Assembly (NCBI RefSeq): GCF_007004665.1
Contig: NZ_ML660052.1
Location: 186,001-250,000, forward strand
DNA: 64,000 nt
Direction: 5' to 3'
From: Denitrobaculum tricleocarpae
GTDB lineage: Bacteria; Pseudomonadota; Alphaproteobacteria; Kiloniellales; Kiloniellaceae
A program made the translations under genes and the position numbers. Within the stretch, counting starts at the first letter, position 1; each line of letters starts with the position of its first letter. Shown here piece after piece: positions 1 to 12,359 of this stretch. Under the pieces are notes generated by a model. It searched no databases. It saw nothing but the letters and a program-made list of their open reading frames with translations, and had not been told where the DNA came from.

Positions 1-1254
1 GAGCGCGTCGCGCACGCCACGCTTGTCGATCGCGTATTCCTTGACCAGGAACTCCGTGACATAAGTACGCTTGGCATCGCCCCATTCCCGGTAGTGGAGA
101 TAAAAGCGGTCCTTGTTGCAGATAAAGAGCTGACGCACGTCCAACGGCGTGACATGGGCCAGCAGATGGTTCACCAGATCCCGGTCGGCATGCGACGCCG
201 AGCGCAGGTGATAAAAATATGAGGGTTCTTCCGGCTTCAGGGGCGGGCGGGCACTGCCCTGATCGATCGCACGCAGGGTCGCCGCGATCTGATGGAATTC
301 TTCCGGCAGCGCATCCAGATGACGATGAACGGCGGAGCGCAGATCGTCGCGTGTCAGCTTCTCGAGGTCACCGGTCTCACCACTCGACGCAAGGTGATCG
401 ACCAGGATAAAATCAAGCCGTTGGCGCAGCAGCCCACGCTCGTCCAGACCCCGCGCATCAAACACCGTCTCGACCAGCCTGTTGGCGCGCAGGAAGTCTG
501 CAACCGCACCTGCATCCTGGATTGAAATCGCCGTCATATCCGCCGTCGCCGGATCGAAACCGGGATCGCAATAAACCAAAGCCGGCTGCCGCACATCCCG
601 GAAGACATAAAGTCCGCCCAGATGGGAAGTAAAGAAATTGCCTTTCCGGTAAGTGACTTCGGTCGGGCTCAGCGGGTGGCGCGAGACATCCCCAACCCGC
701 TCCGCCAGAGACACCATCTCATCCAGCGTATCCTCGTCCCACCAGGCATTGTCGCTCTCCAGAAACCTGCTGATCCCCAGGAGCAGGTCTTCCGCGTCGG
801 ACACCAGTCCGCGCGGTGTGTTGGCCTCGACCCGGATCGTACGGATCGCCAGAAGATCATCGACGCTCTCGATCCGGTAGACCGAGTTCACCAGTTCGCC
901 CATGACCGCGTCGCGGGCCGTCAGCGCAAAAAGCACATCGCGGTTGTCCTCGATGAACTGCTTCAGGATTGCACGGCTGGTGGAAAACTTCGCGCCCATC
1001 AGCGGGCAAGCGGCTTGCGCGAGGGTCAGCAGAATGAACTGCCGGTTACAGCCGTTCGGATTGATGTAGTTTTCGTCTCGAAGTTCCTCTCCGATCTCCG
1101 GCGAGAAACCGGAGAGATCGATGTGAAAGGATTCCAGCGCCGTGCGGCGCCCGGTCAGCTTTTCCAGCGCCGCATTGTAACGCGCGACCTGGGTCGGCGA
1201 AGAGACCTCCACCAGGTTGCCGTACATTAGTCCGCGCTCGATCAGCCTGCGCAT
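1..1254 (-). CDS. Conserved hypothetical protein, probably DUF6638 family (C-terminus cut by window edge)
   Basis: The reading frame is open for 418 codons from an ATG at 1254 and runs off the left edge. The start lies 4 bases after the stop of the AAA+ ATPase gene, and an AAGGAGGG ribosome site lies inside that gene's last codons, so the two are translationally linked. The protein starts MRRLIERGLMYGNLVEV and has no signal peptide or clear membrane segment. I recognise no catalytic motif. From memory it resembles the uncharacterised DUF6638 family, which sits beside an AAA ATPase in other alphaproteobacteria; I could not check this. It is the last gene of a four-gene leftward operon and is probably nearly complete. 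The function is unknown. Confidence 0.75.
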   Translation of the reverse strand, partial: MRRLIERGLMYGNLVEVSSPTQVARYNAALEKLTGRRTALESFHIDLSGFSPEIGEELRDENYINPNGCNRQFILLTLAQAACPLMGAKFSTSRAILKQFIEDNRDVLFALTARDAVMGELVNSVYRIESVDDLLAIRTIRVEANTPRGLVSDAEDLLLGISRFLESDNAWWDEDTLDEMVSLAERVGDVSRHPLSPTEVTYRKGNFFTSHLGGLYVFRDVRQPALVYCDPGFDPATADMTAISIQDAGAVADFLRANRLVETVFDARGLDERGLLRQRLDFILVDHLASSGETGDLEKLTRDDLRSAVHRHLDALPEEFHQIAATLRAIDQGSARPPLKPEEPSYFYHLRSASHADRDLVNHLLAHVTPLDVRQLFICNKDRFYLHYREWGDAKRTYVTEFLVKEYAIDKRGVRDAL

Positions 1255-1258
1255 GACG

Positions 1259-3220
1259 TCAGCCCTCCTTGCCCGCGAAACGCGCACGCGCGGCGGCCAT
1301 GCGGGTCATCTCCTTGACCTGCGCATCGATCGCCGCTTCGTCGGACGCGTTGCCGTAGCGGAATTCACTGTCCGCGTAGCGGTTGATCTCCTGGATCACC
1401 ATCTCCGGCGTGATGGGGCGCGTCAGTTCGCGGATCATGGCCAGCTTGGTGTCGTAGTCCTTTTGCAGGAAGAGCTCGCTGTTCTCCATCCACTCGTCGG
1501 GAAGCTCGAAGTCCATGGCCCGGACCTTGACCGCATCGGTGATGTTCTTGATCGCCCGTCCGGTAAAGCGCTCGTCCGCCTCCTGGATGGCCTTCAGATA
1601 TGCGCCCATCTTCTCGATGGTATCCAGTTCGCCGATGGCATCGCGTGCGCGGTCGAAGACATTTGCCAGTTGCTCTTCCTGCGGACGGCTGTGTTGCGCA
1701 TAGGACGCCGCGACCGCAGACTTGATTTCCTGCGCCGCGAAGAGATCGTGGTCACCGACGGGGATGTTGTGGTTCGAGCCCAGCAGCAGATGCAGAATGT
1801 CGATGTAGTCCGCACGCGTCTGCGGGCCGTCGACCAGAAACCGGGCGCCGGCGCGCTGACGAAGCGCGTCATCCACATTCTCAGGATAGTTGGAGAACAT
1901 ACCGAAGGTGCAGTTGCCCCGCACCACGGTGTTGGCACCCGCGAAGCTCTCCATCAGCACCGCCGTCACTTCCTGCTGGCCCGCGGAGGACTGACGGTCG
2001 CCGCGCTTGCCCGCGATCTGGTCGATGTCGTCGATGGTCCCGAAGCCAATCACATGGGGATCCAGAACCGCGCGGATAAAGGCCTTGGCGTTCTGGCCGG
2101 ATTTTCCCTGATAGCTGTCGATCGAGTCCGAGGAGAGGTTCTCGTAACGGAAGGGATAGCCGGCGTTCTGGCAGTAGTCGTTCAGCAGACCCGCGATCAT
2201 CTGGATCAGGGTCGTCTTACCGGTGCCGGGCTTGCCATCCCCCATGAAGGTGAAGATAAAACCGCCCAGTTCCGCAAAGGGGTTGAGGCGCCGGTCGAAG
2301 TCGTAAGCCATGAGCATCTTCGCCAGCTTGAGCGACTGATACTTGGCGATATGATTGCCCACCACCTCGTGAGGCTTTTTGAAGGTCATGGTCAGGCTGG
2401 TGGACCGCGCCCGGGTCGCCGGGGTGAAGCCGTCGATCTGGAAGTCGTCCGCCTCGACCCGGAAGCTGGCCGCCAGGAAGGCCTCGAGCCCCGGCGCCGA
2501 CTGGGCCCGGATGGAAACCTCCTCCATCAGTCGCTCCATGAAGGCGGCGACTGCCGGGATCAGATCCGCTTCCACCTTGGCCTTCTCGGCGACAACCTGG
2601 TCCAGCTCCCAGAGTGCCCCCTTGAGCGCCAGGGCCGGATTATCGGTCAGGATTTCCTTCAGGTCTTCGACCTGGACCTCGTGCTCTCCCGCCTCGCCGC
2701 TGTGTGCCGCCAGCAGAAACGCGCTCATATTTGCGAAGACATGCAGCACGATCAGCGAAGCGGCCGCGAGCAGTTCACCGAACTCGGCCTTCTTACCGGC
2801 TTCCAGACTGCCGTCGCGATTGCTGCGTTTCAAAGCGCCAAGCGGCGTCTGCTCATCGTATAGATCGCTGACCGCATGGGCCGTGGCGATCGCCCGGCGC
2901 AGGCTCGAGAGAACCGTCGCCTGGGTTGCGCTGACCAGAGGATCCCCGTCATCGGCTGCTTCGATGCGGCCGATCAGAACGACGCCCTCCTTACGGGCGG
3001 GACGGCGTGCGGCCAATCCCGGCGTTGTCGAGCGAAAGGCCCGGCGGGCCGGAATTCCACCGCGTGCAGCAGCCTCCGGAGACGTCGCCGTAACGGCCCC
3101 GGCGCGCGCCGTTCCGATCCGCGGGTGATGCTCGAAACCCTCGAGCAAGTGAAAGGCCGGCTCGTAATGGCTCCGAATATCCTGTTCTCGGATCTCCATC
3201 AGATTTTTAGCGACCGACAT
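1259..3220 (-). CDS. AAA+ ATPase, classical AAA-like, of an uncharacterised four-gene cassette
   Basis: The 653-residue protein has a long N-terminal region (about residues 1-310) and one central AAA+ module. The Walker A motif reads GKPGTGKTT with K335. A pore-loop-like stretch SYQGKSGQNAKAFIRA follows. The Walker B reads GTIDDID, with D397 and with D398 where the catalytic Glu normally stands. A sensor-1-like FSNYPEN and a putative arginine finger in LRQRAGAR come next. This order is typical of classical AAA remodelling ATPases that act on protein substrates. The ATG at 3220 has GGGAGA upstream. It is third of four leftward genes, so its partners are likely the coiled-coil protein at 4433-5536 and the unknowns on either side. 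The substrate is unknown. Confidence 0.9.
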   Translation of the reverse strand: MSVAKNLMEIREQDIRSHYEPAFHLLEGFEHHPRIGTARAGAVTATSPEAAARGGIPARRAFRSTTPGLAARRPARKEGVVLIGRIEAADDGDPLVSATQATVLSSLRRAIATAHAVSDLYDEQTPLGALKRSNRDGSLEAGKKAEFGELLAAASLIVLHVFANMSAFLLAAHSGEAGEHEVQVEDLKEILTDNPALALKGALWELDQVVAEKAKVEADLIPAVAAFMERLMEEVSIRAQSAPGLEAFLAASFRVEADDFQIDGFTPATRARSTSLTMTFKKPHEVVGNHIAKYQSLKLAKMLMAYDFDRRLNPFAELGGFIFTFMGDGKPGTGKTTLIQMIAGLLNDYCQNAGYPFRYENLSSDSIDSYQGKSGQNAKAFIRAVLDPHVIGFGTIDDIDQIAGKRGDRQSSAGQQEVTAVLMESFAGANTVVRGNCTFGMFSNYPENVDDALRQRAGARFLVDGPQTRADYIDILHLLLGSNHNIPVGDHDLFAAQEIKSAVAASYAQHSRPQEEQLANVFDRARDAIGELDTIEKMGAYLKAIQEADERFTGRAIKNITDAVKVRAMDFELPDEWMENSELFLQKDYDTKLAMIRELTRPITPEMVIQEINRYADSEFRYGNASDEAAIDAQVKEMTRMAAARARFAGKEG

Positions 3221-3264
3221 TTTGTCTCCCGTCGTTATTCAAGCGCCGAACTCAAGCAATGGAT

Positions 3265-4407
3265 TCAAGCGCCGGTCATGACGCTGCCATCGGCGGCGAC
3301 CACGTACTTGCGAACATTCCGCAAACTGGAAAAGTCTTTGTCGATCAGCACCTGGTAGGGCCGGTGTGGTAAAATGATCGAGCGTTCCAAATGAGTGACA
3401 CCGGCTTCCTGAGAGGCCGTGTCATAGGGATCGATGTGAAAGACCTCGGTCTCGACTTTTCCGAAAATCCCGGCGGCTTTCTGCTCTGTCTTTTTGGACA
3501 GCAGGGTTTCAACCGACCATGACATGGTCCAGTCGAGACCTGGCGCCCCGGAGGCCTCGGCCAGGATCTCGCGCAGCGGCCCCTGCTGCCGGGTAAAGGT
3601 ATGAGAATACATCGGGCCGACATGGACTCTGCGCAAAAACTTCGGATGAAGGTCGGGAAAGTCCTTATCGAAACCGCGGGCGATGGTCAGCAGTTTCAGA
3701 TCCGACAAGGACTGCGCCAGAAGATGAGTCTGTACCTTGGGCCATCGGAATTCATCGGTTGAGAGCGCCCGGTCGCTGCTGTCCTCCATCATCATCTGAT
3801 AGAGCACGGGAAGATTCTGCGAGCTGTCGTAGACCGCCCAATGGACGAAATAGCGGCGCCGCTTGGAGGTGTCGACCGGCTTGTCCTTGCCCAGCCACAC
3901 CAATTGCGGATGGTTCTGCGCCAGGAACAGGTTCCGGTCGCGCAGCATCTCGTAGTAGACCCGCTGGCTCATGGCATACTGCAGATCGCGCGGCTTTTCG
4001 CGCTTCTGCAGGATGTGCTGCACCATCTCCTGCTTGAGGACATCGCGTGAGGGCAGACTGCCCAGATGATGATCGACTTGAGACAGATCGTTGGCCATCT
4101 GCAGGAGCTCGCGGAATACGGGGAAGCCCGAGTCCGTCCTGTCGATTTCCAGCGCCGAGGAGACGGCTTTTCCGAGGGTTCCGGTCAGGAGATACTTGGT
4201 GGAGAGAGCCTCGAAGCTGTTCGAGAGCGCTTTGAGATAGCCCTCGATGACATCGAGCTGCAAAGCGCCGAAACTCTCCGCGTCATCGGGACGGTCGAGC
4301 GCGGCCACGGCCCGCAGGTTCCCGACAATCCGCTCAAATTTCGCAAAGTAACGCCGGCAAGCTGCGTTGTCGCGCAATTCGAGTGTCTCACTTCCTGAGT
4401 CTGTCAC
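3265..4407 (-). CDS. Hypothetical protein of the AAA+ cassette
   Basis: I do not recognise this protein of about 380 residues. I chose the GTG at 4407, which is preceded by GGGGAACGGA and lies 25 bases after the upstream stop; the open frame itself extends to 4509 but would then overlap the upstream gene. The sequence is soluble-looking with a helical N-terminal half and many aromatic and basic residues (YFVHWAVYDSS, YSHTFTRQQ). There is no signal peptide or membrane segment. It lies between the coiled-coil gene and the AAA+ gene, 44 bases from the latter, so all are probably co-transcribed. It may be an adaptor or substrate of the ATPase; that is inference. Confidence 0.75.
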   Translation of the reverse strand: MTDSGSETLELRDNAACRRYFAKFERIVGNLRAVAALDRPDDAESFGALQLDVIEGYLKALSNSFEALSTKYLLTGTLGKAVSSALEIDRTDSGFPVFRELLQMANDLSQVDHHLGSLPSRDVLKQEMVQHILQKREKPRDLQYAMSQRVYYEMLRDRNLFLAQNHPQLVWLGKDKPVDTSKRRRYFVHWAVYDSSQNLPVLYQMMMEDSSDRALSTDEFRWPKVQTHLLAQSLSDLKLLTIARGFDKDFPDLHPKFLRRVHVGPMYSHTFTRQQGPLREILAEASGAPGLDWTMSWSVETLLSKKTEQKAAGIFGKVETEVFHIDPYDTASQEAGVTHLERSIILPHRPYQVLIDKDFSSLRNVRKYVVAADGSVMTGA

Positions 4408-4432
4408 AGCGTCCGTTCCCCAGCCTGCAACC

Positions 4433-5536
4433 TCAGAGACTCTCCTCGCCGTAGAGATTCTTATCGTGCTTTTCGACGATCTTGGCGAAGCGGCGGACGA
4501 AGCGCTCATCGGACTTCGCCTTTTCCTCGAGAACCTTCCGCGCGAAGACCATGTGATCCTCGTGGTTTTCCATCATCTCGGCCATGCGGCTCTGCGTCGC
4601 AGATCCAATGGCCGCCATTGCGGCCTGGGCCTTCTCGTCGGTTGCAACGCCGATTTCGTTGATGCGGTGCGCAACGTCCTGCTGCTGCGCGGTCTTCAAC
4701 GACTTGGTCAGGGCGTCGTAGAGAACGACCCGCTGCTTGGTATCGGTCTGCAGTTTGTTGATCAGCACCATTTGAGTGGCGGCCTGGTTCTGCAGAGAGT
4801 CGACCCAGGACTTGCCCTTTTCAATATAGCGCTCCAGGGTCTGAGACCGCGCCAGCTTGACCTGCTCGCCTTGCACCAGCTCGTTATAACGGGTGTTGAG
4901 CGCAGCAAGTTCAGTCTCGAGCGCTGTACGGGCGGCCGCGTCCTGCTCCATGGAAATCCGGTTTTCGAGATCGATGATCTGAGGATCCATGGCCAGGATT
5001 TCGGCCCGCTCGGCCTCCAGTTCGGCAACCACGATCTCCCGGTCGTTCAGAGTCTCGGTCAGGTTGGTATTGACCTGCTCTTTGTGCATGTTCAGGACAT
5101 CGAGCTGATCGCTCAGCATTTTGATGATGACGTCCGATTTGGAAATCAGATCCTGCAGCTTATCGTCGACGGAAGAATTGCGGATCCGCTCTTCGCGCAT
5201 AGAGTCCGACTTTGCGCTGGAAAAAAAGCCGACGAACGTCTCCATGCCAGAGCGTTCGCGCATCTCGTCGAAGTCTTTTGAAAATCCGGCCGTGACCTCG
5301 TCCAGCCCCATAATCAAATCCGCGATGTTCGCATTCATCGCTTCATTGTGGGAATGAACGTCGTCCAGGGTCGCATTTTCGATATCGATGTCGATGTCTC
5401 CACCTTCCTTAAGACGCGATCGCGTCCCTTCAATCTGGCTCGAGAGGGCAGCGACCTTTGCCTTGGCCTCACGGACTTCTGCTTCTGCCGATTGAATAGC
5501 GGTGTCGAATTTCTGCATCGATGTGAAAACTCCCAT
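4433..5536 (-). CDS. Coiled-coil protein of the AAA+ cassette (PspA/TelA-like architecture)
   Basis: The 367-residue protein is strongly helical and charged, with long coiled coils over about residues 10-50 and 125-330. It has no signal peptide or membrane segment, so it is cytoplasmic or peripheral to the membrane. The stretch around NQAATQMVLINKLQ and the following helix recall TelA-type toxic-anion-resistance proteins, and the general build recalls PspA; neither match is firm. Homologues are, from memory, sometimes annotated as microtubule-binding proteins merely because of the coiled coil. It is the first gene of the leftward cassette. The start is the ATG at 5536; the ATG seven codons in, with GGGAG upstream, is an alternative. 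Confidence 0.8.
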   Translation of the reverse strand: MGVFTSMQKFDTAIQSAEAEVREAKAKVAALSSQIEGTRSRLKEGGDIDIDIENATLDDVHSHNEAMNANIADLIMGLDEVTAGFSKDFDEMRERSGMETFVGFFSSAKSDSMREERIRNSSVDDKLQDLISKSDVIIKMLSDQLDVLNMHKEQVNTNLTETLNDREIVVAELEAERAEILAMDPQIIDLENRISMEQDAAARTALETELAALNTRYNELVQGEQVKLARSQTLERYIEKGKSWVDSLQNQAATQMVLINKLQTDTKQRVVLYDALTKSLKTAQQQDVAHRINEIGVATDEKAQAAMAAIGSATQSRMAEMMENHEDHMVFARKVLEEKAKSDERFVRRFAKIVEKHDKNLYGEESL

Positions 5537-5815
5537 AGCGAGAAGGACCTGTTCGAGAACAGCACTCTACATATCTGAGTATTCTGGGCCAGAGTTTAAA
5601 GATGAAACCAACCGGATACGCGCGTTTTACGCCGGAAGCGGGGAGAAATCCTGGATGCCTCGAAAATGCCTTAGCTATTGATATTACAAGTAAATTTTTT
5701 GTTACCCACAGGCAAAACTATACCGTTGGTTGCATACAATATCTTGCGTCCGTTAACTATTTCCCGGAGGAAACCGGTCATGAAAGTCGCATCTTGATCG
5801 TATCAGTCCAACACT

Positions 5816-5952
5816 AGAGCGCGTCATGTTTTAACGGAAACACTCTGTGTTTTCGCTAAAACATGTGAACCCGCTCTACATCTTATAATAAGAGCAGATT
5901 CACCGGTACGACGGATCGCCGAAGGCGATTCCAACTAAACCGGGTCTGCTCT
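5816..5952 (-). repeat. Two-hairpin palindromic repeat, copy 1
   Basis: Two adjacent stem-loops fill most of the gap 5537-5950. Hairpin B (5891-5952) has outer arms AGAGCAGA/TCTGCTCT and a core ATCGCCgaaGGCGAT. Hairpin A (5816-5877) has outer arms AGAGCG/CGCTCT and an inner stem CATGTTTTA/TAAAACATG. Read in the direction of the sulfotransferase gene, B follows the gene directly and shares bases with its TAG stop (5951-5953), then A follows. A diverged copy lies at 19478-19608. The rest of the gap (5537-5815) is AT-rich and presumably carries the promoter of the leftward cassette; I see no gene in it. Confidence 0.8.
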
Positions 5953-7034: not shown

Positions 7035-7352
7035 CTAGGTTGAGGACTCATATTCTTTGACGGTCTTGACGATAAAATTATGTTTTCTGGCAAGGAGTTA
7101 GGAATGGAGCGATGCTGTAGCATCGTGCTTAGCCAGAATTGGACTGACGACACGACGCTGCCCAGAACGTGGTTCCCAGAACGTGGTTCCCAGAACTCAT
7201 AATCTCGCCGCCCCTTTGGGGTCTTGTTTTGCCTGGTTTTAGGGGCGTCGAGCCCTCTCACCGGGCCTACGGGCCCGCTTTCGAGACCTCTCCTGCCTAA
7301 AACCAGGCAAAACACGATCAAGACCATCAAGGAATATGAGTCCTTAACTTAG
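7035..7352. mobile_element. MITE-like element with about 35-bp terminal inverted repeats
   Basis: The left end (7035-7070, CTAGGTTGAGGACTCATATT and onward to GGTCTTGA) and the right end (7318-7352) are near-perfect inverted repeats differing at only a few bases. Inside, a second inverted repeat, GTTTTGCCTGGTTTTAGG at about 7226-7243 against its complement at about 7296-7313, makes a long hairpin. A short direct duplication (CCCAGAACGTGGTT) lies near 7160-7190. The element is about 318 bp and has no convincing gene, so it looks like a non-autonomous transposon derivative. Its right tip supplies the TAA stop of the lysR gene (7349-7351). The outermost bases CTAG and TTAG fit a YTAR-type target, as used by some IS5 relatives; that is inference. 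Confidence 0.7.
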
Positions 7353-8224
7353 TGACGTTCCTTCATCAGTTCGGCAAGGAGCGGGTTGGGGAAGCGCCGC
7401 TCTACGGTTACACCGTAAAAAGTCTCCGTCAGATTGGAGAGCTGCGCGCTTTCTACAAGCGCGCCGCTCGCGAGTTCATCGCGCACAACAATCGGCGGCA
7501 TGACCGCCAAGCCGATCCCCTCACGCGCCAGGAGACGCATCATCGCCATGTCATCGACTTCGGCAACGATCTGCGGCCGGACGCCGAGCCGGTCGACGAG
7601 GGCATCGAATCCCATTCGCAGGCCGCTGGCGGCAGTGGGCAGAATGAGGGCCGACCGGCTGAAGCGCTCAGGCAGAGTGAGATCCGGCGGACAGAGTTCC
7701 GGGACGCCGATCAGGCTAAGCGTCTGTTCATCCAGCCGCTGCACGACAAATGAGGTGAGGGCATCGGCGGGTGGTGGCTGGTTGGTCAGGACGAGATCCA
7801 GATGCAGCGCCGAGAGTGCGCTGAAGAGCTCCCCGGCGCTTCCCGAGCGCAGAATGACCTCCACGTCCGGCCGGCCCAGCACAGGGCGCAGGAAAGCCAG
7901 CTGAAAGTTCCGCGAGAGTGTGGCCAGAGAGCCGACACGCAGAGCCTGCCGCTGCTCGCCGCTCTGTTGGAGAGTGGCAATCAGCTCCCGTCCGGTCGCG
8001 AAGATGGAGTCGGCATGGTCGAGCGCGATCCGGCCGGCCTCGGTCAGGTATAGAGCGCGTCCCCGGCGCTCGAAGAGAGCCTGGCCCAAGCGCTCCTCCA
8101 GTTGTCGGATCTGGGTCGAGATAGCGGACTGAGACACGTTCAGCTGCGCCGCTGCCCGGGTCAGGTTGCCTTCGTGGGCGACGGTCTGGAAATACCGAAG
8201 ATGGTGATAGTTCAATTCAGTCAT
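7349..8224 (-). CDS. LysR-family regulator, probable regulator of dabB-dabA
   Basis: The 291-residue protein has an N-terminal winged helix-turn-helix (LNYHHLRYFQTVAHEGNLTRAAAQ, residues about 4-60) and a C-terminal LysR substrate-binding domain. I use the ATG at 8224; a GTG nine bases upstream also fits. It is divergent from dabB with about 106 bases between, and an inverted repeat TACA-N5-TGTA lies between them. It therefore probably controls the dab operon, as CbbR-type or similar LysR proteins control carbon-uptake genes; the effector is unknown. The stop codon lies in the end of the MITE-like element, so the last residue may not be ancestral. Confidence 0.88.
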   Translation of the reverse strand: MTELNYHHLRYFQTVAHEGNLTRAAAQLNVSQSAISTQIRQLEERLGQALFERRGRALYLTEAGRIALDHADSIFATGRELIATLQQSGEQRQALRVGSLATLSRNFQLAFLRPVLGRPDVEVILRSGSAGELFSALSALHLDLVLTNQPPPADALTSFVVQRLDEQTLSLIGVPELCPPDLTLPERFSRSALILPTAASGLRMGFDALVDRLGVRPQIVAEVDDMAMMRLLAREGIGLAVMPPIVVRDELASGALVESAQLSNLTETFYGVTVERRFPNPLLAELMKERH

Positions 8225-8250
8225 AACGTTCACTTAAACAGAACAAAAAC

Positions 8251-8330: not shown

Positions 8331-9905
8331 ATGCTTTACAACCTGATTCCCCTGATCGCGCCTGCTGCCCTGCTTTCGGTGGCCGTTTTCGCATTGAAGC
8401 GGCAGGGAATGCGTCCGGACCTCGTCCCGAAGCTCACGGAAGCGGCTGCATTGATCGCGCTCGCAACAGCAATTGCCTCGGCTGTGCTCCTGCTGGTTCA
8501 GGGCGCCGGCAGCGGTCCGCTGCTGGGAATCGCCGGCGTGGGGATTGCGACCCGGCTCGATGTGGTGAGTGCGACGATGCTGGTTCTCGTCGCCTTCGTT
8601 GGCTGGGTGGTCGTGCGCTACTCGGCCTCCTATCTCGACGGTGACGCGCGTCAGGGCGCTTTTCTTGGTTGGATGGCGACGACACTTGCCGTGGTGCTGT
8701 TGCTGGTTCAGGCGGGCAACCTCGTCCATTTGGTCGCAGCCTGGATCGCGACCAGCCTCTGCCTGCATCGGCTCATCCTTTTTTACAGCGACCGTGTCAA
8801 AGCCGCCCGTGCGGCGCGCAAAAAGTTCATCGTCGCGCGGGTTGGCGATGCCGCTCTCGTCTTGGCGGCGGTTCTGCTTGCCTTCGGCTATGGAACCTTC
8901 GACATCCCGGCGATCCTGACCGCCGCGCGGGAGGGCGTGACGCCTGCCGTTGCGCCCTGGGCGGCGGGCCTGATTGCATTGGCCGCGATCCTCAAGTCCG
9001 CGCAGTTTCCGACCCATGGCTGGCTGACCGAAGTGATGGAGGCACCGACGCCGGTATCCGCGCTGCTCCACGCCGGTGTCATCAACGCGGGTGGTTTCGT
9101 GCTCATCCGCTTCGCCGATGTGATGCTGCTCTCCCCGGGCGTGCTCGCCGTTCTGGTGATGATCGGCGGTTTCACGGCACTGTTCGGCGGCCTCGCCATG
9201 CTGGCGCAGCCGGCCGTCAAGACATCGCTGGCCTGGTCGACGATCGCGCAGATGGGCTTCATGATCATGCAGTGCGGCCTGGCCCTGTTCCCGCTGGCGC
9301 TCCTGCACATCGTTGCCCATTCGCTCTACAAGGCCCATGCCTTCCTGGCGTCCGGCACGGCGGTGGATCTCGTGGCGGCGATCCGCCGGCCCGGCCCTAT
9401 CGCGATCCCTGATAGCCGGGCGGTCGCCCGTGCCTTTGCGCTAGCACTCACCATCTATGTGGTGATCGGCTTCGCCTTTGGGTTCGACGCCAAGTCGCCG
9501 CAGGCCATTGCACTGGGTGCGATCTTGATCTTCGGCGTCGCCTATCTAATCGCGCAGGGTCTCGCCGACGCTGCGCCTCGGGTGCTGACTCAGCGCACGG
9601 CGCTCTACGCGGTCGCCGCCTCGATCAGCTACTTTGCTCTGCAGACGGCGACGGAATGGCTCACTGCCGGGACCCTTCCCGCGACCCCAGCGCCGGGGCC
9701 GCTCGAGTGGGCGTTGCTGGTCCTCGCGCTCGTCAGCTTCGGTCTTGTCGCCATTGCTCAGGCGACATTCCCGCTCTGGGCTTATCACCCGGCAGCCGCC
9801 GGCCTGCGTGTGCATCTGTCGAACGGACTCTATGCCAATGCGGTCTTTGACCGCCTGATCGGCAATGGGTCGCTCCGCCGCTCCACCACCCCGACCGATT
9901 CCTGA
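8331..9905 (+). CDS. dabB: DabB, proton-conducting membrane subunit of the DAB inorganic-carbon transporter
   Basis: The 524-residue protein is a NuoL/MrpA-type membrane protein (proton-conducting transporter family, PF00361) with about a dozen or more hydrophobic helices. A typical stretch is KSAQFPTHGWLTEVMEAPTPVSALLHAG, which carries the conserved Lys, His and Pro of the proton channel. It is shorter than true NuoL (about 610 or more) and is not next to other nuo genes. DabA follows 21 bases later. In known DAB systems DabB passes cations down the proton gradient and drives one-way CO2 hydration by DabA at the inner membrane. The ATG at 8331 is the first in frame. An older annotation would be NADH-quinone oxidoreductase subunit L. 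Confidence 0.9.
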   Translation: MLYNLIPLIAPAALLSVAVFALKRQGMRPDLVPKLTEAAALIALATAIASAVLLLVQGAGSGPLLGIAGVGIATRLDVVSATMLVLVAFVGWVVVRYSASYLDGDARQGAFLGWMATTLAVVLLLVQAGNLVHLVAAWIATSLCLHRLILFYSDRVKAARAARKKFIVARVGDAALVLAAVLLAFGYGTFDIPAILTAAREGVTPAVAPWAAGLIALAAILKSAQFPTHGWLTEVMEAPTPVSALLHAGVINAGGFVLIRFADVMLLSPGVLAVLVMIGGFTALFGGLAMLAQPAVKTSLAWSTIAQMGFMIMQCGLALFPLALLHIVAHSLYKAHAFLASGTAVDLVAAIRRPGPIAIPDSRAVARAFALALTIYVVIGFAFGFDAKSPQAIALGAILIFGVAYLIAQGLADAAPRVLTQRTALYAVAASISYFALQTATEWLTAGTLPATPAPGPLEWALLVLALVSFGLVAIAQATFPLWAYHPAAAGLRVHLSNGLYANAVFDRLIGNGSLRRSTTPTDS

Positions 9906-9926
9906 GAGAAGAAGAAAGCCATAACC

Positions 9927-12359
9927 GTGGAAATTAAAACCGAGTTACTCGATCTCTCGACCGTGAGCACCGCTGCCGACGGGGCCGCGCGCCAGATCCC
10001 GCCGGTATGGCCCCTCGCGTCCTACGTTGCGGTCAATCCCTTTTTGGGTCAGACGGAGCAGACACTTGCCCAGGTGGGAGCCCGGCTCGGGCGTATCGGC
10101 GGAACGCCGGTGGCCATGCCGCGTGACTGGTATCTGGAGCGCATCGCGGCAGGAAAAATTTCTGATGCCGACCTCGTTGCGGCCCTGGCCGCGTCGCCCC
10201 ATGCGGATAAGCCCTCCGACGTGGCTGCACTGAAGGCGGCAGCGGCGAAAACACGGCCCGCGCCTGCGGCTCTGCCCACGATTGCCGATCTCGCCGCCAG
10301 AGACCATGGCGAGGACTGGCCCGGTCTGATTGCCGACTGCTTCGGAAACTGGGCCGCGGGCTATTTCGACGAAGGTCAAGCGCTCTGGGCCGCGCCGCGC
10401 GGACGGCGGGCATGGACCGCATATTTGGCTCATGCGACCCACGATTTGACGCCTGAGATCATGGGGCTCCATGACTTCGGCCGCTTTGCCGCGGATGCAC
10501 CGCAGAATCCGCTTGAGGCCATTGCCCGCGCGGCTCAGCGGCTTGGGCTGAGCGAAGCTGCCCTCGACAGCTATTTTCATCAGCTTCTCTTTTCGCTCAG
10601 CGGCTGGGCGCAATATGCGCGCTACCAGCTCTGGCGTGCCGAGTTGGGAGGGGAAAGCGACACCACGATCACCGATTTTCTTGCGATCCGGCTCCTTTGG
10701 GAAGAAGCCGTGTTCATACAGCATGAGGCTGCGATCGAAGATGAGTGGGCGAAAGTGCGCGCGCAGCACCAGACCCCCATTGCCGCTGGTGAGGCTGAAA
10801 TCATTGATGAGATCCTGCAGGAGGCCGCCGAACGCGCGGTACAGCGGGGTCTTGTGGAGACGCTCGCGGCGCCAACGCCTGCGGGAGATGAGACACGGCC
10901 CGCCCTGCAGGCCGCCTTCTGCATTGACGTGCGTTCGGAAGTTTTCCGCCGTGCGCTGGAGGCGGTCGATCCGGCGATCCGTACTCTGGGGTTCGCCGGT
11001 TTCTTCGGCGTTTTCGCCAAGCACCGGCGCTTTGCGTCGGACGTCGAGGAACTGCGGCTTCCTGTGCTTCTGAACCCGACCATTTCTTCGACCTCGGGCG
11101 ATGCCGCAGATGAAAAAGACGATCTGGCCACGCGCTATTCCGCCCGCGCCAAGCGCGCCTGGGGTCGTTTCAAGCTGGCTGCGGTCTCCTCCTTTGCTTT
11201 TGTCGAAGCCATGGGGCCCGTCTATATCGGCAAGTTGCTGCGCGATGCGCTGGGACTGAATCCAACGCCCGTGCCGAACGATCCCGCACCGCGTTTCGAC
11301 CCTGAACTTGATTTGGAAACGCGGATCGCTTCAGCTGAGACCGTCCTGCGCGCCATGTCGCTGACCAATGGTTTTGCACGGCTGGTTCTGCTCGCCGGTC
11401 ACGGCGCGAATGTGGTCAACAATCCGCACGCCAGCGGCCTGCACTGCGGAGCTTGTGGCGGCTACTCGGGTGAGGTCAACGCACGCTTGCTGGCGTCGCT
11501 TTTCAACGACCCGGACGTTCGCAAAGGTTTGGTCGATCGGGGAATTACCATTCCCGAGGACACGCTGTTTGTCGGTGCCTTGCATGATACGACAACCGAT
11601 GCGGTCACACTTTACGACAAGGACGCGCCGGCCTTCAATTATGCGGCGTCCGATCATGGTGCCGATCTCAAGCAGGCGCGTCAGTGGTTGGTGGCGGCGG
11701 GCAAGGTGACCCGCGGCGAGCGGGCGCTGCGCCTGCCGCGCGCCGGAGGTCAGGGTGACATTGCCGCTCGAGCCCGCGACTGGGCCGAGGTCCGTCCCGA
11801 GTGGGCTCTAGCCGGCTGTAAGGCCTTCATCGCCGCCCCACGCACCCGCACCGCGGGACGTAATCTCGAAGGCCGCGCTTTCCTGCATGACTACGACTGG
11901 AAACAGGACAGCGAGAAGGGCTTCGGTGTGCTGGAACTCATCATGACCGCTCCGGTTGTGGTTGCGAGCTGGATCAGCCTCCAGTATTACGGCTCGACCG
12001 TCGCGCCGGACACTTTCGGCTCCGGCAACAAACTGCTGCACAACGTGGTCGGCGGCATCGGAGTCTTTGAGGGGAACGGCGGGCCCTTGAGAGCCGGTCT
12101 TCCCTGGCAGTCGGTCCATGACGGCGAGAACTATATCCACGACCCGCTGCGTCTGTCCGTCTGCATTGAGGCGCCACGCGAAGCCATGACCGGCATTCTC
12201 CAGCGGCATGAGGGGGTGCGGGCACTGTTCGACAACCGCTGGCTCCATCTCTTCGCGCTTGATGACGAGGGCCGGATCGCCTATCGCTACAGCGGTGATT
12301 TGACCTGGGAAGCGGTTGAGGCAGCGATCTCCACGGAGAGCCTTGAAGCGGTTGCGTAG
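9927..12359 (+). CDS. dabA: DabA, beta-carbonic-anhydrase-like subunit of the DAB inorganic-carbon transporter
   Basis: The 810-residue protein is of the DUF2309/UPF0753 family. It has the zinc site known from Halothiobacillus DabA: C332 and D334 in CIDVRSE, H492 in GHGANVV and C507 in LHCGACGG. The H-to-C spacing of 15 equals that of the characterised protein (H524, C539). Together with DabB it is thought to convert CO2 to bicarbonate in the cytoplasm, energised by the membrane potential, and so to accumulate inorganic carbon. The start is the GTG at 9927 with a GAGAGAAG-type site upstream. No RuBisCO or carboxysome gene is in the window, so the role may be anaplerotic supply at low CO2. Confidence 0.93.

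Follow-up and report, generated by a model that had tools for sequence, protein, structure and literature searches.

The window analysed here, a stretch of 64,000 nucleotides from Denitrobaculum tricleocarpae, has at its left edge a compact operon that is read leftwards (Table 1). On the basis of open reading frames, a six-gene unit with the order g1-g2-g3-g4-gX-g5 was identified in this genome. The original prediction, made from the letters alone, had described a tight leftward operon of four genes. Remeasuring the spacings of g1/g2, g2/g3 and g3/g4 returned exactly the 25, 44 and 4 bases it had given, and g1 to g4 proved to be real, but its four-gene extent was too short, as the window edge cuts through g4 and leaves gX and the DUF1523 gene g5 outside. 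gX begins on the final base of the stop codon of g4, so that the two genes overlap. The conserved start of g1 is probably Met7, at position 5518. A palindromic REP/MITE-like repeat sits between a sulfotransferase-like gene and g1; many contigs of the genome carry it, in about 40 near-identical copies altogether. The window also holds a gene for a NuoL-like membrane protein and, behind it, a large DUF2309-like gene, with a divergent LysR-type regulator; judged by eye, this pair is a putative DAB-type inorganic carbon transporter. Downstream of the operon, a putative ECF-type sigma factor gene followed by a vWA-domain membrane protein gene was recognised by eye.

Table 1 Coordinates of the operon, its motifs and associated features. 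Plain numbers are window positions; numbers with an L prefix are positions in the locus named.
Feature	Location	Strand	Description
g1	4433-5536	minus	ORF, 367 aa; first core gene
g2	3265-4407	minus	ORF, 380 aa, GTG start; second core gene
g3	1259-3220	minus	ORF, 653 aa, AAA+ ATPase; third core gene
g3 Walker A	2201-2245	minus	residues 326-340, MGDGKPGTGKTTLIQ
g3 pore-loop-1 position	2099-2116	minus	residues 369-374, SYQGKS
g3 Walker B	2021-2050	minus	residues 391-400, IGFGTIDDID
g4	<1-1254	minus	DUF6638; fourth core gene, incomplete at window edge
g4, full length	L002:9758-11254		498 aa in the genome
gX	L002:9489-9758		beyond window edge; 89 aa, two TM segments; core gene
g5	L002:8782-9474		beyond window edge; DUF1523, 230 aa, two TM segments; core gene
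Repeat	5815-5890		palindromic, REP/MITE-like
NuoL-like/DUF2309-like pair	8331-12359 with 7349-8233		putative DAB-type transporter
Sigma factor and vWA genes	L002:3210-5884		putative ECF-type sigma factor; vWA-domain membrane protein
pspA-like gene	L091:13691-14404		Stappia-type locus
pspA-like gene	L133:3402-4115		Stappia-type locus
pspA-like gene	L085:4686-5360		upstream of g1
Slot-B family of 13 loci	L192:5940-6872; L090:11070-11969; L031:10933-11787		three members; ten more loci
Slot-B protein	L187:5842-6879		345 aa
DUF559 gene between g3 and g4	L127:12125-12673; L130:11937-12404		MTES_1575-type nuclease; also in L236, L240, L246 and other rhizobial loci

The AAA+ protein g3 scored 51.5 bits against PF00004, for which the curated cut-off is 21.2 (E = 1.8e-13), in agreement with its earlier description as a classical-type AAA+ ATPase with a large N-terminal region. 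About 290 residues without a recognised fold precede the AAA domain, and no MIT family was listed for g3 in Pfam at E ≤ 1. The Walker A motif was conserved in 31 homologues and in Vibrio. The residues at the pore-loop-1 position were invariant in the 31 homologues, and YQGKS was retained there in Vibrio. In the Walker B motif, Asp-Asp replaces the usual Asp-Glu, and this pair was invariant in the 31 homologues and also present in Vibrio. Sensor 1 and the SRH, with its arginines, were likewise conserved across the 31 sequences. The AAA domain showed weak resemblance to those of the i-AAA protease, proteasomal Rpt and katanin ATPases.

The product of g1 is acidic and helix-rich, contains a single proline and no TM segment, and is predicted to form a coiled coil. 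An alignment of 50 sequences gave a mean column identity of 77%. No convincing family match was found for g1 in Pfam, NCBIfam or PADLOC, and a Pfam scan of the 50 members returned only scattered coiled-coil noise. The protein had been called PspA/TelA-like, a likeness that the profile comparison did not uphold. HHalign gave probabilities of 2.0% for PspA/IM30 (PF04012) and 0.9% for TelA (PF05816), so that no relation to either was detectable, while the controls, a half-split of PspA and g1 against Vibrio g1, each gave 100%. TelA was not found in the genome carrying the window. Two Stappia-type loci that are close relatives have a pspA-like gene no more than 1.5 kb from g5, and a third locus (L085) has one 0.9 kb upstream of g1. 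These were the only three of 198 loci with pspA near the operon, the other 195 being without it.

Two further proteins could be assigned to families by curated scores. g4 reached 469 bits against PF20343 (DUF6638; cut-off 27, E = 1.9e-140), which bears out the DUF6638-like assignment made at the outset, and g5 reached 207 bits against PF07509 (DUF1523; cut-off 23, E = 1.9e-61). To our knowledge, no function attaches to the names DUF6638, DUF1523 and DUF2333, the last being that of a membrane protein family met below, and a search of an open-access library found no paper that mentions DUF6638. The 380-residue g2, unrecognised in the original prediction, stayed without a convincing family match in Pfam, NCBIfam or PADLOC. 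By sequence, no convincing solved relative was found for g1, g2, g4 or g5.

Predicted structures were obtained for g2 and g4. The AlphaFold2 model of g2 (pLDDT 90.7) has a helical N-terminal half and a beta-rich C-terminal half, the latter with the order strand-strand-helix-helix-strand that is also found in T-fold proteins. The C-terminal half matched T-fold enzymes (urate oxidase, DHNA, PTPS and QueF-like) only weakly, with VIA Z values of 3.7-5.0 over 87-122 residues, in a method for which calibration showed that Z below 8 can arise by chance. The matches to urate oxidases went up to Z = 5.0 (rmsd 3.6 over 119 residues), and others were at an equal level. The T-fold likeness is accordingly a lead, because Z reaches only 5.0, and the N-terminal half gave PhoU- and BAR-like matches that were equally weak. 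Four polar residues of g2, D194, D247, H254 and R260, were invariant in the alignment. At E ≤ 0.001, Foldseek returned no match for the g2 model against the PDB or against viral models. The g4 model (pLDDT 86.1) had no Foldseek match in the PDB at E ≤ 0.001 and VIA Z values of at most 5, giving no recognised fold.

To describe the distribution of the operon, contigs were scanned with the AAA alignment. As a result, relatives of the AAA protein were found on at least 562 genome contigs. Among the matches listed, the closest named relative by the AAA protein was Pelagibius sp. Alg239-R121, with 90% identity. Of 84 loci, 74 carried genes g1 to g5 with order and orientation unchanged, and most of the remaining loci stopped at a contig edge; this order is fixed far beyond chance. 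In a larger set, all six genes were present in 111 of 158 loci. Conserved co-occurrence across many alphaproteobacteria, for which the original prediction had proposed a neighbourhood survey, was thus found. A MAG contig carrying g3 alone (L041) was an exception to the fixed order, and in a Roseovarius locus (L076) only g1 to g3 were present, g4 and g5 not being found within 9 kb.

The partners that follow g4 differed between lineages, which are here labelled Rhodobacteraceae-type (family f24) and rhizobial (family f160), both labels being based on the loci that bear names and on synteny with Sinorhizobium meliloti. Rhizobial loci kept g1 to g4 and carried, in place of gX and DUF1523, a membrane protein assigned by its curated score to DUF2333 (PF10095); all 34 loci fetched from one rhizobial genus were of this type. 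In Vibrio parahaemolyticus and V. vulnificus, g1 to g4 were present, with about 30% identity in g2, and were followed by mfd; neither DUF1523 nor DUF2333 adjoined g4 in the Vibrio loci. Furthermore, g1 to g5 were found in one genome of another class, whose AAA protein nested beside that of a Rhodobacteraceae-type genome in the AAA tree. Therefore, the operon moves as a unit.

Occurrence was patchy between genera and near-universal within them. g2 was detected in 83 of 198 genomes of one family (that of G022), each genome representing a different genus, and in 71 of 121 genomes of a second family (that of G395); across the phylum as a whole, 26 of 398 genomes carried it. In one genus 144 of 146 species had the operon, and in another all six did, so that the within-genus patchiness known from defence systems was not found. 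Genomes with a full-length match all had one copy, and double g2 matches corresponded to split or partial matches. No match to the core was found in 50,697 phage records or in viral contigs, and in a plasmid collection the operon occurred only on very large replicons.

Within this stable framework, two positions of the Rhodobacteraceae-type loci were variable, namely the g1-g2 gap (slot A) and the g3-g4 gap (slot B). In DUF1523-type loci, slot A was filled in 70 of 117 and slot B in 94 of 119, against 9 of 119 for the g2-g3 gap. In Pelagibius-type loci, the genes were packed. When pairs with at least 95% AAA identity were compared, which were mostly Ruegeria and hence not independent, the inserts were homologous in 10% (slot A) and 17% (slot B), compared with 100% for both the g4-g5 segment and the downstream 1.5 kb and with 68% for the upstream side. 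Comparison of each locus with its nearest relative, in pairs that are phylogenetically non-independent, gave homologous inserts in 16% for slot A (57 loci) and 34% for slot B (97 loci), as opposed to 100% for g4-g5 (98 loci) and 65% and 55% for the upstream and downstream flanks; these figures were unchanged in kind without Ruegeria. Because homology in the slots falls below that of the flanks, turnover is quicker in the slots than among the genes around the operon, although insert homology was called by tblastn at 1e-4, which short, fast-evolving membrane families can escape, so that turnover may be overstated, chiefly for slot A. The DNA of g1 to g4 was 84-92% identical in pairs whose slots shared only short matches, mostly of chance length. 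Turnover depended on the clade: in all six species of one genus, a common three-TM protein of about 113 residues occupied slot B. In rhizobial loci, slot B was either empty or held a short repeat-like sequence or a DUF559 nuclease element, and larger inserts were rare. The two fast-turning positions inside a stable Rhodobacteraceae-type core are newly found here.

With a minimum length of 60 residues, slot B contained 145 sense ORFs, which fell into 74 sequence families including 51 singletons, and slot A contained 81 ORFs in 65 families; some of the short ORFs are expected to be spurious. TM segments were predicted in 83 of 145 sense ORFs of slot B compared with 4 of 165 antisense ORFs, and in 57 of 81 sense ORFs of slot A compared with 2 of 74 antisense ORFs. 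Proteins of slot A had mostly one to three TM segments. In about half of the slot-B ORFs, the start lay no more than 30 nt from the g3 stop and the reading direction was that of the operon. Most slot proteins had no known match. The Pfam families that were recognised in slot B were nearly all of conflict types, comprising DUF559/MTES_1575 (10 members), AbiJ_NTD4 (3), putAbiC (2), Phd/YefM (3), PIN (3), Mrr and NA-iREase1. As a control, 130 flank ORFs were assigned to 97 Pfam families, mostly housekeeping among the matches listed. PADLOC matches were set aside as proof of defence cargo, since the flank controls matched about as often as slot B, and slot-A proteins gave no clear PADLOC match.

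Several slot-B proteins were observed repeatedly or had partial matches. A family found in 13 loci carries TM segments and, in most members, the motif PNE(V/I)GDTLAG...EL..QR.E; two slot-B proteins scored as putAbiC, and the L192 protein scored weakly as AbiP. The 345-residue protein of L187 had a weak DrmA match in PADLOC and, by eye, a putative histidine-kinase-like ATPase fold. The rhizobial DUF559 gene between g3 and g4 has repeat-like flanks, and in other loci the place is taken by a repeat-like segment of about 200 bp alone; the insert looks like a small mobile element.

The region upstream of the operon was examined for a shared regulatory signal. A motif, GATGTAAAT-N4-GTAACATT(C/G)CCTAT, was shared by 43 of 91 loci (for example L009, L023 and L034), where it precedes g1 by about 60 nt; it was not seen in the window. 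Its core had 19 exact matches in 149 Rhodobacteraceae-type genomes, 12 of them at the operon; a regulon sharing the motif was rejected, as the motif is nearly private to the operon and so offers no clue to function. Binding of ChvI inside SMc02733 has been reported in a screen in which most fragments were intragenic (PMC3687685). A link of ChvI to the operon was dropped, because the equation of SMc02733 with g3 was inferred from gene numbering only and the screen was mostly intragenic.

Comparison with known systems gave partial likenesses. In PADLOC, the best core matches were TRIP13 (2e-5) and IetA (1.4e-3), both to the AAA domain only, and nothing was found for g2 or g4. Operons that combine PspA with an AAA+ protein have been described for the phage shock response, and these PspA/PspF operons likewise place an AAA+ ATPase beside a cytosolic helical protein and membrane proteins (PMC11237479). 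In the operon studied here, by contrast, g1 is not PspA by profile and the AAA domain is of the PF00004 type. We know of no counterpart of g2 or g4 in PspA/PspF operons. The ESCRT-III/Vps4 (CdvBC) system shares a classical-group AAA domain with an aromatic pore loop and an adjoining coiled-coil partner, whereas g1 had no relation to PspA, a member of the ESCRT-III superfamily, that profile comparison could detect, and g3 differs in its Walker B Asp-Asp, its large N-terminal region and its membrane partners. TelA/XpaC toxic-anion resistance likewise has a helical cytosolic protein of similar size, but differs by the g1 profile comparison and by the lack of TelA in this genome. The prrC gene has been found embedded within a type IC restriction locus, which is similarly a fixed core operon containing a foreign conflict gene set (PMC12707154). 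Unlike that arrangement, there are two fixed positions with very high turnover here, and the core has no restriction genes and is kept across whole genera. The original prediction of an undescribed system is therefore consistent with Pfam, NCBIfam and PADLOC, which yielded no known named system. By elimination, the operon appears to be of a new kind, given that beyond the AAA domain no core protein matches a known system by sequence; its mechanism, once known, could turn out familiar.

The reading that we favour, with slightly less than even confidence, is that the operon encodes a membrane-linked AAA+ protein-remodelling machine with a standing cell function, in which g1 is the likely substrate and the slots serve as landing sites. 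Among classical AAA proteins, those with an aromatic pore loop are hexameric translocases that remodel proteins. g3 would accordingly be expected to hexamerise and to pull a protein partner with its aromatic pore loop. Its natural candidate substrate, by analogy, is g1, because this protein is the richest in helix among the partners and its gene always comes first, and g1 might be assembled or dismantled through the action of g3. g2 and g4 could act as cytosolic adaptors, and gX together with DUF1523, or DUF2333 in rhizobia, would anchor the machine in the inner membrane. The exchange of DUF1523 and DUF2333 beside unchanged g1 to g4 supports a modular membrane anchor. The retention of the operon by whole genera argues for a standing function, which may be the upkeep of the envelope or of membrane proteins rather than occasional defence. 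In the Rhodobacteraceae-type loci, slots A and B would be landing sites, and the mostly small, fast-changing membrane proteins there, which share the direction of the core, may be clients, sensors or effectors of the machine. The tight or overlapping genes, fixed order, movement as a unit, conserved motifs, single copy, genus-wide retention, slot turnover and lack of matches in phage records and viral contigs count for a membrane-linked machine. Against it count the Vibrio g4 genes without a DUF1523 or DUF2333 neighbour, the lack of a confident fold match for g2 and g4, and the negative profile comparison of g1 with PspA and TelA. Furthermore, a standing cell function alone leaves the variable slots unexplained, and the patchiness between genera allows a non-essential or conflict role.

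For the slots, an explanation compatible with any reading of the core is that they are tolerated insertion points, filled randomly by selfish or neutral genes that have no link to the core. Such random filling would fit the range of the cargo, which spans Abi-like proteins, toxin-antitoxin pairs and the rhizobial DUF559 elements with their repeat-like flanks, as well as the absence of co-variation between the contents of slots A and B (Fisher p = 0.71). Nevertheless, we consider it somewhat unlikely, as only two gaps are used freely and the g2-g3 gap is rarely filled, slot A holds mostly proteins with one to three TM segments, and about half of the slot-B ORFs begin close behind g3 in the operon direction.

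The original prediction had also noted a resemblance to membrane-stress or conflict systems. The conflict part of this claim keeps some footing in the variable slots, but genus-wide retention argues against a typical defence system, and it was on this ground that a defence system was lowered from first choice. In an anti-phage or similar system, the core would sense or be sensed, and the slots would hold exchangeable effectors or guards. The conflict types among the recognised slot-B families against a mostly housekeeping flank control, the turnover of the slots beyond that of the outer flanks, the enrichment of TM segments in slot-B ORFs over antisense ORFs and the documented case of prrC lying inside a type I restriction locus (PMC12707154) all point in this direction. 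The evidence on the other side makes a conflict system unlikely: the core is single copy and nearly universal within a genus, searches of phages and viral contigs did not find it, its proteins lack a good PADLOC match, the majority of slot proteins resemble nothing known, PADLOC matches are about equal in flank controls and slot B, and the rhizobial slot B is empty or holds a DUF559 element or a short repeat-like sequence. A further arrangement, which we think distinctly unlikely, would be a genus-core AAA+ membrane machine with two diversifying positions, where each species would combine a common engine with small membrane proteins of its own, some of them abortive-infection-like, on a standing chromosomal platform for exchangeable effectors or guards. 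Finally, a MoxR-like assembly chaperone, in which g3, g2 and g4 would load a cofactor into, or activate, a membrane enzyme encoded elsewhere while the T-fold-like half of g2 binds a ligand, would suit the strand and helix order of g2, the many T-fold enzymes among its top structural matches and its invariant polar residues, but is improbable in view of Z values in the chance range, the lack of any Foldseek match at E ≤ 0.001, PhoU- and BAR-like matches of equal weakness in the N-terminal half and the absence of a recognised conserved enzyme gene beside the operon.

Carriers of the operon number in the hundreds among marine and plant-associated bacteria, with Ruegeria, Sulfitobacter and Sinorhizobium meliloti as examples, and some vibrios have it as well; beyond the AAA domain its proteins have neither a described function nor a recognised solved relative. 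If the reading as a membrane-linked remodelling machine is true, it would add an AAA+ machine of the inner membrane to those already known. The hypervariable positions would then allow one to ask why a stable, genus-wide operon swaps small membrane proteins between sister species, and since the operon occurs in culturable organisms, this question is directly testable.
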